Below, piece by piece: positions 5,528 to 32,646 of a stretch of 32,646 nucleotides of DNA. The stretch comes from Deltaproteobacteria bacterium (GTDB lineage Bacteria > Desulfobacterota > RBG-13-43-22). Below the pieces are notes generated by a model. It saw only the letters and a program-made list of their open reading frames with translations. It was not told the origin of the DNA and ran no database searches. Every line of letters starts with the position of its first letter. Position 1 is the first letter of the stretch. Location of the stretch: the NCBI GenBank assembly GCA_016219225.1, contig JACRBX010000010.1, positions 1 to 32,646 of the forward strand, read 5' to 3'. A program made the position numbers and the translations under genes.

Positions 5528-6619
5528 ATGCCGAATGATCCCTTTGAAAAATTGCGGGCCTATCTGGACCAATTGCCCCTGGGATTTCCGAAAACGCAGT
5601 CCGGGGTTGAAATAAAAATTCTCAGAAAATTATTTTCCGAGCCGGAGGCAGAATTGGCCCTCCTGGTGACTCCCTTTCCTGAAGACCCCCAACAAATCGC
5701 CGTGCGGACCGGTGTATCCCTTGACGGACTGGAAGAAAAATTGGAAGCCATGGCCCGGAAAGGGCTTCTTTTCAGGCTTCGCCGCCAGGGAAAAACCCAA
5801 TACAACATCGCCCCCTTTATGATCGGTCTGTATGAGTATTCGGTGGAAAGGATGGATCGGGAATTAGCCGAACTTTGCCGGCAATATTACGATGAAGCCT
5901 ATCAGGATGAAATGGGGGCCAGCAATATACCGGGTTTCAAAGTTATTCCTATAACCAGAAAAATCGATGCCGATCTGGTGTTCTTCCCTTTTGAAAAGCT
6001 CAAAGAGGAAGTTCGGGCCGCCCGGAAAATAGCCGTTGCCGAATGCATCTGCCGGAAAGAGACCCGTCTCCTTGGACACGGATGTGATTATCCACGGGAA
6101 ACCTGCTTAAGCTTCGGAGTGGCTGCGGAATACTATATAGAAAACAAGATGGGAAGAGAGATCACGGCCGACGAGGCCATTCAAATTCTCGAAGAGGCCG
6201 ATAAGGCCGGTCTGGTCCATGCCGGGGCCAATACCGCCCATCTGTCCAATATCTGCAACTGTTGTCCCTGTTGCTGCGCCTCGATGAAAGGGATGGTCTT
6301 CAAAGGCCATGACAAACAAAAATACATGAATGCCCTGTATGAGGCCGTGGTGGATAAAGAGACCTGCCTTTCCTGCGAAGAGTGCCTGAACCGCTGTCCG
6401 GTCAAGGCCATATCCCTGGATGAAACCGCCTGGGTCAACCGGGATAAATGTCTCGGCTGCGGTCTGTGTGCCGGCGTCTGTCCCACCGAGGCCATCACCA
6501 TGCACCTGAGGGCCGACCGGCAGGAACCGTTTAAAAATACCTTTGAATTGGGAATGGCCATTCTTAAGGGGAAGACAGAGAATTTAAATAAAAAAATTAG
6601 TAAGACTTTAGCCGTTTGA
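5528..6619 (+). CDS. 2x[4Fe-4S] ferredoxin-type protein with N-terminal wHTH-like region and extra Cys cluster
   Basis: This encodes 363 aa. Residues about 25-110 resemble a winged-helix fold (LEEKLEAMARKGLLFRLRR). The centre carries C173-I-C175, further cysteines in GHGCDYPRETC, and a dense CNCCPCCC cluster at residues 243-250. The C-terminus has two canonical ferredoxin motifs, C280xxC283xxC286xxxC290P and C308xxC311xxC314xxxC318P, giving two [4Fe-4S] clusters. It is soluble, with no signal peptide. Family members are generally annotated as 4Fe-4S proteins of anaerobes; the physiological role is not established. An AAGGAT ribosome-binding site precedes the ATG. The last four codons and stop (LAV-stop) coincide with the conserved outer motif of the downstream repeat element, so the native 3' end may have been replaced when that element arrived. 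Confidence 0.88.
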   Translation: MPNDPFEKLRAYLDQLPLGFPKTQSGVEIKILRKLFSEPEAELALLVTPFPEDPQQIAVRTGVSLDGLEEKLEAMARKGLLFRLRRQGKTQYNIAPFMIGLYEYSVERMDRELAELCRQYYDEAYQDEMGASNIPGFKVIPITRKIDADLVFFPFEKLKEEVRAARKIAVAECICRKETRLLGHGCDYPRETCLSFGVAAEYYIENKMGREITADEAIQILEEADKAGLVHAGANTAHLSNICNCCPCCCASMKGMVFKGHDKQKYMNALYEAVVDKETCLSCEECLNRCPVKAISLDETAWVNRDKCLGCGLCAGVCPTEAITMHLRADRQEPFKNTFELGMAILKGKTENLNKKISKTLAV

Positions 6620-6896
6620 AAAGAATGTTATTATTTACCGCAAAGGCGCGAAGAACGCAGAGAGAATTTTTTTTTAGTACAATCCCGTGAGAGGCGGGAT
6701 TGTACTAACCAGTCCTGACCTCCGGCCAATAATTATGCGGTCGACTTCGTCGCCCTAAATCAAAGGCTTCCGTTTGGAAGCCGGCCTAAGGGTAGCGAAG
6801 CTTATTGATTGCCGGCCCCTCAACGGCAATCAATAAATTTTCTTCTCTGCGGTCTCTGCGCCTCTGCGGTGAAAACAGTTTTTCAAAAAGCTAAAC
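6606..6896. repeat. Hairpin-rich element with about 55-bp imperfect terminal inverted repeats (family B)
   Basis: This fills the gene-less stretch 6620-6924. Left end: TTTAGCCGTTTGAAAA, then an ACCGCAAAGGCGCG-type arm (about 6637-6666). The right end, read in reverse, gives TTTAGCTTTTTGAAAA and an ACCGCAGAGGCGCAGAG arm (about 6840-6895). The interior carries a row of hairpins: 6676-6706 (perfect 12-bp stem, 7-nt loop), about 6737-6754 (GC-rich), 6765-6782 (perfect 7-bp stem, GTTT loop) and 6802-6836 (perfect 13-bp stem). No coding frame is apparent inside. It could be a MITE-like mobile unit, a structured RNA, or both. A partial copy of the right arm recurs at 17851-17904. Confidence 0.75.
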
Positions 6897-6924
6897 AGAC
6901 CAAAAATTGAAATTCCGTAGTTGA

Positions 6925-13761: not shown

Positions 13762-13808
13762 AATCTAACACATCTCCCTTTTCCTTATCGACATCAATTT
13801 AGTCAAAA

Positions 13809-14165
13809 CGTCATTCCGGCGAAAGCCGGAATCCAGTCAGAAAATCTGGTTATATAAATCCTTCCATCCTGGATTCATATTCTCAATCAAATCCAATTTC
13901 CATTTTCTTTTCCATTCTTTCAATTGCTTTTCTCTCTCAATAGCGGATTCAAAATTTTCGTGTAATTCATACCAAACCAATAAATGAACCTGATAACGTT
14001 TGGTAAATCCTTCTACCATATCGTTTTTGTGTTCCCATACTCTTTTGACCAGATCTGAAGTGACGCCAATATAGAGAGTACCATTTCTCTTACTTGCCAT
14101 AATGTATACCGCAGGTTGTTTATCCATTCCCGCCTCCCTGGATTCCGGCTTTCGCCGGAATGACG
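13809..14165 (-). mobile_element. GIY-YIG nuclease gene bounded by perfect 28-bp inverted repeats
   Basis: Left arm 13809-13836 and right arm 14138-14165 are exact reverse complements (outer border CGTCATTCCGG, inner border CCGGAATCCAG) and are copies of the intergenic repeat A. Between them lies only the nuclease gene and its ribosome-binding site. The stop codon begins at the base after the left arm and the site GGGAGG starts next to the right arm. The unit may extend outward: ATCAATTTAG at about 13793-13802 resembles the reverse of the outer motif at 14332-14357. I infer that this is the nuclease-encoding form of the repeat family. Confidence 0.8.
13837..14127 (-). CDS. Single-domain GIY-YIG endonuclease
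   Basis: This encodes 96 aa from the ATG at 14127, preceded by a GGGAGG site. An upstream in-frame extension is only translated repeat arm and is rejected as coding. Signature residues are present: VYI (7-9), YIG (19-21), Arg29 and His33 of the RVWEHK helix, Glu64 in the AIEREKQLKEW block and Asn85 in NPGWKDL. This is the complete UvrC N-terminal/YhbQ-like domain with no added DNA-binding domain. GIY-YIG enzymes cut DNA using one metal; known roles include repair, homing and restriction. Exact enclosure by inverted copies of a genome repeat suggests it acts on, or spreads, that repeat. All expected active-site residues look intact. Confidence 0.93.
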   Translation of the reverse strand: MDKQPAVYIMASKRNGTLYIGVTSDLVKRVWEHKNDMVEGFTKRYQVHLLVWYELHENFESAIEREKQLKEWKRKWKLDLIENMNPGWKDLYNQIF

Positions 14166-14215
14166 TAAATGAAATCTCGCCTTTTATACACAACGACAGT
14201 AATTTTTGCGCATGA

Positions 14216-14331: not shown

Positions 14332-14357
14332 TTTTTCAAAGGGCTAAATTGTTACGA
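14332..14357. repeat. Outer motif TTTTTCAAAnnGCTAAA, copy
   Basis: TTTTTCAAAGGGCTAAATTG followed by TTACGA. The preceding 35 bases (AGTTTCAA, TTTTCAAGTA and so on) are clearly similar to the reverse of the left flank of element A9 (32107-32160), so this is a conserved outer arm rather than chance. Further copies lie at 6607-6624, 6879-6895, 17889-17904, 26592-26616, 32107-32132 and 32265-32292. Confidence 0.75.
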
Positions 14358-26549: not shown

Positions 26550-26612
26550 ATGGCTATCGATCCCTTTAAAAACGATTGGGTCCTGATGGATTGTATCAAT
26601 TTAGCCTTTTGA
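26550..26612 (+). pseudogene. Truncated 5' end of a gene, interrupted by a repeat element
   Basis: ATG with a strong ribosome-binding site (AAAGGAG) begins MAIDPFKNDWVLMD. From about codon 15 the sequence is the conserved outer arm of the repeat (TGTATCAATTTAGCCTTTTG), which supplies the in-frame stop (INLAF-stop). I read this as the remnant of a gene or leader peptide whose remainder was lost when the element inserted. A genuine 20-aa leader peptide remains possible. Confidence 0.55.
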
Positions 26613-30829: not shown

Positions 30830-32086
30830 CTACCGGTGCAAATTTGAAGCGGCAATGACCCCGATATTGGCCTTCACCAGGGCCTGGGCCGTGAGGTTCA
30901 CCGAATCATGCTTGTCCAAATAATTACGCAGCATCAACGGCATCAACCCCCGGGCTTCAATATCCGTTTTGGGAAGAAAGTAATCCAGGATATCGGAAGG
31001 GTGCTCCCGATTTTCCTCCACGGCGATCTCCCCCCCCTCATGTTTGGCCGAGATATTGGGGACCATTCCGGCCAGCGCGACCAGCTCATCCCGCCGATTA
31101 TAAGGCTGACGGACGATTGATTTCCAGGTCTCGGTAATATGATGCTCGAAGCGCACCTTATCTTCCAGGCCCAGGGCTTTTCGAAGATGGTCGGCCTGAA
31201 TAATGGTTTGATTATTGACGGAATTGGAAAGATTAAAGCCGATCAGGCTGGTTGATCCATCCGGCCGGGAGAAAAGCCTGGCGGCCATCAAGGTCCAAAG
31301 AACTGCAAAAGGGTTATCATTTCCCATAAAAACGGATATCTTAAACTCGATATCGATCCCCATCTTATAGAGGAGATAGCCGGCCAGGACGGTTCCGGGA
31401 TTGATATTGAGCACCTGACGGACCCCGTAACGGGTATAAAAATAGAGAAATTCGTCCACCCATTTGTAAGGATAGTCATTGGGCTGCCCCACGCCGCCGA
31501 AATAGCCGGTAATCGTTTCCGGTCCACCCAGGTGGATATTGCTGCCGTCGGTCCCTTTGGTATCCAAAGTTTCAACGTAAGTGGCACCGATAAGGGACAT
31601 GGCCAGGGCTGTGGCCAGCGTGTCGCCCTGATCCCCTTCCTGCTCCTTCATGTTCCGGACCCGGATAAAGCGGCCGGGCAGGAGCTCTTTCTTTTCTATA
31701 GCCTGCCTGGCCTCATCGATCAGCCAGGGAAAATATTGCAAGGCACTGATTTCCAGGGTTACGGCATTTTTGGTGTTGATCCGGTTTTCTTCAATGCCCA
31801 AAGATCGATAGTAATCGACCAGGGAGACAAAGGCCCCGGATTCCCGCTTTTCAGCCAGCCAGTCCAGATCGGCCAAATAGGGAGATCCCATCTCCTTAAG
31901 ACGGGCCTTCAGGTTTTCCGGCTTCCTGGCCTCTTCCGCCTGGGCATTAATGGTTTCGGGTCCGCCGTACCGCTCCACTATTTCCAACAATGGATTGATT
32001 GTTTCATTTTCCGGATCGGTGAGGAGCCGGTTGACTTCTCCCAACCGATCCGCATTAATGGCTAACATTTCTCTCATATCAGACAT
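30830..32086 (-). CDS. Conserved-looking 418-aa protein of unknown function, next to panB
   Basis: I do not recognise the family. It is soluble, has no signal peptide or membrane segment, and contains no cysteine at all. Features that look functional are NTKNAVTLEISALQYFPW, a Gly-rich TKGTDGSNIHLGGPETITGYFGG segment, the FYTRYGVRQVLNINPGTVLAGYLLY block, VFMGNDNPFAVLW and NLSNSVNNQTI. A GGGAGAAG site just before the ATG supports the start. It follows panB by 223 bp on the same strand, with repeat A9 in between. A cytoplasmic enzyme is my best guess, without a reaction. Confidence 0.75.
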   Translation of the reverse strand: MSDMREMLAINADRLGEVNRLLTDPENETINPLLEIVERYGGPETINAQAEEARKPENLKARLKEMGSPYLADLDWLAEKRESGAFVSLVDYYRSLGIEENRINTKNAVTLEISALQYFPWLIDEARQAIEKKELLPGRFIRVRNMKEQEGDQGDTLATALAMSLIGATYVETLDTKGTDGSNIHLGGPETITGYFGGVGQPNDYPYKWVDEFLYFYTRYGVRQVLNINPGTVLAGYLLYKMGIDIEFKISVFMGNDNPFAVLWTLMAARLFSRPDGSTSLIGFNLSNSVNNQTIIQADHLRKALGLEDKVRFEHHITETWKSIVRQPYNRRDELVALAGMVPNISAKHEGGEIAVEENREHPSDILDYFLPKTDIEARGLMPLMLRNYLDKHDSVNLTAQALVKANIGVIAASNLHR

Positions 32087-32100
32087 GATCTTCTCCCTTT

Positions 32101-32299
32101 GAATTCTTATAATAATTTAGCCCTTTGAAAAATTTGAAACTTCTACCTGAAAATTCAGACTTCCTCGCTCGTCATTCCCGTGAAAACGGGAATCCAGGTG
32201 TTATGCTGAGACGAAAAGAACCTGGATTCCCGTTTTCACGGGAATGACGGAGAGGCTATCGACGTTTTTTTTAAAACGCTAAACTGATACGAATTCTTA
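32101..32299. repeat. Extended paired-palindrome element A9 with both outer arms and flanking 9-bp repeat
   Basis: Core: left arm 32170-32197, 24-nt spacer, right arm 32222-32249. Outer arms carry TTTAGCCCTTTGAAAAA (about 32116-32132) on the left and TTTTTTAAAACGCTAAACTG (about 32267-32286) on the right, in inverted orientation. GAATTCTTA occurs at 32101-32109 and again at 32291-32299, directly repeated and flanking the unit, as a target-site duplication would. This is the most complete copy in the window. Confidence 0.8.
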
Positions 32300-32309
32300 A
32301 ACTGTTTTT

Positions 32310-32646
32310 TTAATCGTTATCGCCGCTCCTGAATTTTTCATACTCTCCCTCGATCATTCGATAACAGTGCTCTTCCTCCGGGAAGCGGCCGGTTCGGACA
32401 TCGTCACAATAATCCTTCATGGCCTGAATGATCAGCTCCGCCACATTACAATATCTCTTGACAAACTTGGGCGTGAAGGCCTGGAATTGACCGATGAGAT
32501 CGCTGACGATCAATAACTGGCCGTCACAGTCCGGACCGGCCCCAATGGAAAGAACCGGTATGGCCAGCTTTTTGCTGATGGCGGCGGTGACTTCCGGAGG
32601 TACGGCTTCCACCAATAGCATCTTGGCCCCGGCCTTTTCCACCGCC
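32310..32646 (-). CDS. panB: 3-methyl-2-oxobutanoate hydroxymethyltransferase, C-terminal part
   Basis: The gene runs off the right edge; 111 residues are visible. The motifs VEAVPPEVTAAI, IPVLSIGAGPDCDGQLLI and FTPKFVKRY match the C-terminal third of PanB, including the conserved glycine-rich loop and the typical tail EVRTGRFPEEEHCYRM-like segment. The enzyme makes ketopantoate from ketoisovalerate and methylene-tetrahydrofolate in the first step of pantothenate and CoA synthesis, in the cytoplasm. The unrecognised 418-aa gene follows it on the same strand. Confidence 0.88.
   Translation of the reverse strand, partial: AVEKAGAKMLLVEAVPPEVTAAISKKLAIPVLSIGAGPDCDGQLLIVSDLIGQFQAFTPKFVKRYCNVAELIIQAMKDYCDDVRTGRFPEEEHCYRMIEGEYEKFRSGDND

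Follow-up and report, generated by a model that had tools for sequence, protein, structure and literature searches.

Palindromic repeats of bacteria include the REP/REPIN elements and the dRS3-type palindromes of Neisseria (ATTCCC..GGGAAT). Bacterial MITEs are short, non-coding elements with terminal inverted repeats and a target duplication, and they are presumed to be mobilised in trans. One of them, MITEPsy1 of Pseudomonas syringae, has been tentatively related to IS5 and is flanked by 4-bp duplications (PMC3189936). Published elements of the IS66 family of insertion sequences generate 8-bp target duplications (PMC3281130), and their ends start GTAAGCG.. or GTAACCG.. (PMC12888890). Here, we describe an element beside panB in the window, that is, the whole stretch of 32,646 nucleotides that was analysed. 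The element shares the above features of bacterial MITEs, but unlike MITEPsy1 its family has IS66-type ends with several unrelated palindromic cores behind them. Its ends start GTA(A) and its target duplications are 8 bp long, as in IS66 elements, and complete elements with near-identical ends occur in the same phylum; in contrast to these, it measures 182 bp and carries no gene. The core hairpin, GTCATTCCCG..CGGGAATCC, presumably resembles REP/REPIN and dRS3-type palindromes, but those are not known to have IS66-type ends or 8-bp duplications. Judged by sequence comparison, the element is very probably a non-autonomous IS66-type MITE that was mobilised by an IS66 transposase acting in trans.

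The element lies between panB (minus strand, 32310 onwards; PF02548) and a minus-strand gene for a 418-aa protein without Pfam match (30830–32086, start at 32086). Paralogues from the same genome were aligned together with their flanks; they agreed up to GTA[A/T]CA[A/G]TTTAGC and its inverse and diverged directly outside. Since paralogue similarity ends at GTA...TAC, the window element was delimited as given in Table 1. These boundaries agree with the original prediction, which placed the true ends of a unit of about 180 bp beyond the palindromic core, with the left end now corrected to 32109. The terminal inverted repeats, GTAWCARTTTAGC..TTTGAAAA, are present at both ends across the family and imperfect in the window copy, which departs from the family consensus of the left end (GTAACAATTTAGCCCTTTGAAAAA) at the first base (G to A) and the fifth (C to T).

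Table 1. Positions in the window of the element beside panB, its parts, and further elements and ends of the same kind.
Feature	Positions	Strand	Size or sequence	Basis or remark
Whole element, IS66-type MITE without coding capacity (probable)	32109..32290	+	182 bp	Paralogue comparison
Target-site duplication (8 bp), left copy	32101..32108	+	GAATTCTT	
Target-site duplication (8 bp), right copy	32291..32298	+	GAATTCTT	A32299 belongs to the flank
Left terminal inverted repeat	32109..32132	+	ATAATAATTTAGCCCTTTGAAAAA	Paralogue alignment
Right terminal inverted repeat, read inwards	32267..32290	-	GTATCAGTTTAGCGTTTTAAAAAA	MITE family version GTATCAGTTTAGCTTTTTGAAAAA
Palindromic core, left arm	32170..32199	+	CGTCATTCCCGTGAAAACGGGAATCCAGGT	30/30 complementary to right arm
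Palindromic core, right arm	32220..32249	+		Pairs with 32170-32199
Second element, same kind of ends, unrelated core	6600..6901	+	302 bp	CACCGCAGAG-type palindrome
Orphan left end by palindromic core	26593..26611	+	GTATCAATTTAGCCTTTTG	Matching right end not found
Orphan end by palindromic core	14337..14355	-	GTAACAATTTAGCCCTTTG	Matching other end not found

The 9-mer GAATTCTTA is directly repeated at 32101–32109 and 32291–32299, as had been proposed, and does not occur again in the 32.6-kb window. Alone, the repeat is weak evidence, as 9 of 100 shuffled versions of the window had at least two such matches; it becomes significant because it sits exactly at both boundaries of the element and because dozens of paralogues show the same pattern. 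Thus, the predicted target-site duplication was retained, but its length of 9 bp was not. The first base of the element is G in 41 of 44 aligned ends and A in 2, so that A32109 is a mutated element base and the duplication comprises 8 bp. In addition, only 3 of the 23 copies with exact 8-bp repeats have the same letter at the start of the element as just behind the right repeat, and the ninth match is therefore due to chance. A 9-bp duplication was accordingly rejected in favour of 8 bp, the ninth letter being a mutated element base that meets a chance A in the flank. Nor is the duplication found immediately outside TTTAGC/GCTAAA, as originally described: the hexamers occupy 32116–32121 and 32278–32283, separated from the duplication by the outermost 7 bp of each terminal repeat (family consensus GTAWCAR). 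The suggested insertion through a staggered cut is supported, with a stagger of 8 bp.

The window's own genome, a 5.9-Mb draft of 353 contigs (G000), contains many copies of the element. Exact 8-bp duplications flank 23 of the 37 two-ended copies, and at least seven of eight bases match in 27. A few of the own-genome copies, on contigs C94, C97, C309 and probably C133, go back to a single insertion site and hence do not count as independent. The shuffled-partner control gave 1.7% exact duplications. Fewer than seven bases match in the other 10 copies, which may reflect age, recombination or mis-paired ends. The 8-mers vary between copies (GAATTCTT, GTTTCTTG, AACGAAAC, AAAGAAAG, GGTAATTA and more) and thus represent the target and not the element; they are AT-rich and near-symmetric, with a consensus of about RAAWWTTC. 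Since every copy has a different 8-mer, the 9-mer is excluded as a recurring part of the repeat. Despite the matches in window shuffles, it is scarcely credible that AT-rich flanks agree in the 9-mer by chance or that the 9-mer belongs to the repeat itself, and both readings are refuted by the paralogue-specific 8-mers at the exact boundaries.

No ORF of at least 100 aa is present within 32109–32290, and the element, which has no transposase gene, falls within the MITE size range that we applied (about 50–600 bp). Its core forms a perfect hairpin, with arms of 30 bp and a z-score of -11 for the single-strand DNA fold. A search of Rfam with the element matched no family, and terminator-like sites sought across 32050–32350 were not found. 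The hairpin, and the core units dispersed through the window without these ends, would suit a REP-type unit mobilised by a transposase of the TnpA_REP/HUH (Y1) kind, in which case the flanking 9-mer would be incidental. HUH/Y1 transposition is not known to create target duplications, whereas 8-bp duplications were found at dozens of sites, and the ends are conserved across unrelated cores. We therefore regard a REP/HUH origin as very improbable, and for the window copy it is refuted by the duplication. Core-only copies may still move by that route.

In GTDB genome contigs the end motif was detected at no fewer than 116 loci, mostly in Desulfobacterota and in planctomycetes of the Brocadia/Scalindua type. 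Among the matches listed, 67 end pairs from other bacteria (Desulfobacterota, Brocadiales and other groups), selected on end similarity alone, enclose 66–353 bp, and 33 of them are flanked by exact 8-bp duplications, compared with an expectation of 0.9%. For one copy, near a tRNA-Ala gene of an anammox Brocadia, two relatives have an orthologous empty site with a single 8-mer: the occupied site reads AGGGCATT-[140 bp]-AGGGTATT and the empty one a single AGAACATT or AGAGCATT. The family thus displays duplications of fixed length and copies at many unrelated sites, with the empty site being that of the Brocadia copy. An element-free orthologous panB site was not found by way of the adjacent 418-aa gene, which has no homologue among 38 related genomes, and the joined flanks of the own-genome copies gave no spanning match in four genomes (G001–G004). 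The Brocadia copy (L107:7300–7439) lies immediately upstream of the tRNA-Ala gene and separates it from the likely promoter region.

Besides the MITEs, we identified complete IS66 elements. The first, L211, came from IS66 loci of MITE-bearing genomes, and others, including L228 and L236, were retrieved by a phylum-wide search with its transposase. L211 is 2.0 kb long, its ends are alike at 16 of 16 positions (GTAACAGTTTAGTCCTT), and it is flanked by the exact 8-bp duplication AAGCGAAC; its genome (G064) also houses miniature elements (MITE locus L104). L228 measures 1986 bp (GTCAGTCC), and L236 measures 2361 bp, with GTATGAGTTTAGCTCTTTGAAAAT at both ends and the duplication TTCACTGA. Of the 24 bases of the L236 end, 21 are shared with the best MITE ends, so that the closest IS66 ends differ from MITE ends at three. 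About half of the MITE ends start GTAT and not GTAA, unlike published IS66 ends, and L236 likewise starts GTAT. For both L211 and L236, the transposase scores above cut-off against PF03050 and against NF033517, the NCBI equivalog for IS66. Within the phylum, the L236 transposase has few homologues, and the surrounding stretches examined contained no recognisable ends; one viral contig carried the end motif with no matching second end.

Because the complete IS66 elements of the same phylum match the MITEs both in their ends and in the 8-bp duplication, an IS66 transposase acting in trans would be the agent. In the host genome, as represented by the 353-contig draft, neither a Pfam search nor a protein search found an intact IS66 transposase; contig C314 retains a fragment, the broken C-terminal part of an IS66 transposase with a decayed end (GTGAACAGTTCAGTCCTTTT / GTGAACAGTTCAGTCC) behind it. 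This lack of an intact partner would fit movement by another DDE family with 8-bp duplications (e.g. of the IS1595, IS256 or ISL3 type) and a convergent likeness to IS66, and 8-bp duplications are indeed produced by several IS families. We consider such an origin unlikely, since complete IS66 elements share the end motif (GTAACAGTTTAG; GTATGAGTTTAGCTCTTTGAAAA) together with the 8-bp duplications. Most likely, the mobilising IS66 transposase decayed at a later time or was not captured in the draft assembly. With only a decayed fragment in the genome, the window copy is probably stranded now and no longer mobile.

In L236, a protein with a DruA domain (PF14236, E 3e-36; L236:477–1355) is encoded ahead of the IS66 transposase. 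This domain is otherwise known from Druantia phage defence. DruA genes were also tried as a guide to partners and rejected, as none of 26 loci combined both MITE-type ends with a duplication.

The same ends enclose different cores. In the window's own genome they flank either a GTCATTCC palindrome (about 180–205 bp) or a CACCGCAGAG palindrome (about 276–356 bp), some single ends adjoin other cores, and the Brocadia copies contain still others. The second element in the window (Table 1) is bordered by AAAAATTA (6592–6599) and AAAAATTG (6902–6909), which are alike at 7 of 8 positions. Many GTCATTCC units in the window lack IS66-type ends; these may be palindromes that were captured by the ends elsewhere, or the core-only copies may be decayed elements. 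It is possible, albeit doubtful, that IS66-type ends serve generally as carriers of hairpin repeats, the same ends of ~24 bp having repeatedly taken up unrelated cores (GTCATTCC.., CACCGCAGAG.., GTAGCGC.. and others) in Desulfobacterota and anammox planctomycetes. If true, this would explain the spread of several widespread intergenic palindromes.

Further repeats were observed around these elements. At L050, near 3065, a family end adjoins a GTAGGGTGGGT..ACCCACCCTAC palindrome, which we take to be a widespread repeat. In the window, a small GIY-YIG nuclease ORF (13837–14193; PF01541, E 1e-16) is situated between two GTCATTCCGG palindromes that are perfect inverted copies of each other (13808–13836 and 14138–14166), with palindrome sequence encoding its N-terminus. 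One MITE copy of the own genome contains a group II intron (L032:353–2480, corresponding to G000:C97:51452–53579) directly beside one core hairpin, with an ORF for a reverse transcriptase (PF00078) and maturase (PF08388) and an Rfam match to RF00029 at 468–546 on the minus strand. This placement fits introns of class C, to which it would presumably belong and which home to hairpins; contig C94 has the same flanks and a MITE copy without the intron. A second dispersed repeat of roughly 130 bp (TTAGTWACT..ACGCAAAATGGATAGAA .. TTTTGGTTCCGGCTKGTCCGGGTTRGG), with a variable interior and no inverted ends, was seen at L273, L274 and L278–L280 and in the flanks of L007, L021, L032 and L283. The MITE occupies the identical point in several copies of this repeat, which suggests a single insertion that was amplified later.

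As for the mechanism, the GTAWCARTTTAGC..TTTGAAAA ends would have been recognised by a DDE transposase of the IS66 family that came from another source. This enzyme would have attached them to a target opened by a cut staggered by 8 bp, and gap repair would then have produced the duplication of GAATTCTT. At the panB locus this is a plain insertion between panB and its neighbour, and mobile DNA of this type is widespread but ordinary. MITEs as such are already known, and the IS66-type family is new: in the open literature that was searched, we came across no previous account of a MITE derived from IS66. For one of the intergenic palindromes that are abundant and usually unannotated in environmental bacteria, the analysis supplies the exact ends, the length of the duplication and a likely transposase. 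The element is more interesting for its palindromic cores, which are interchangeable. If the pattern of shared ends and swapped cores holds, it would provide a testable explanation of how hairpin repeats pass between genomes and phyla.
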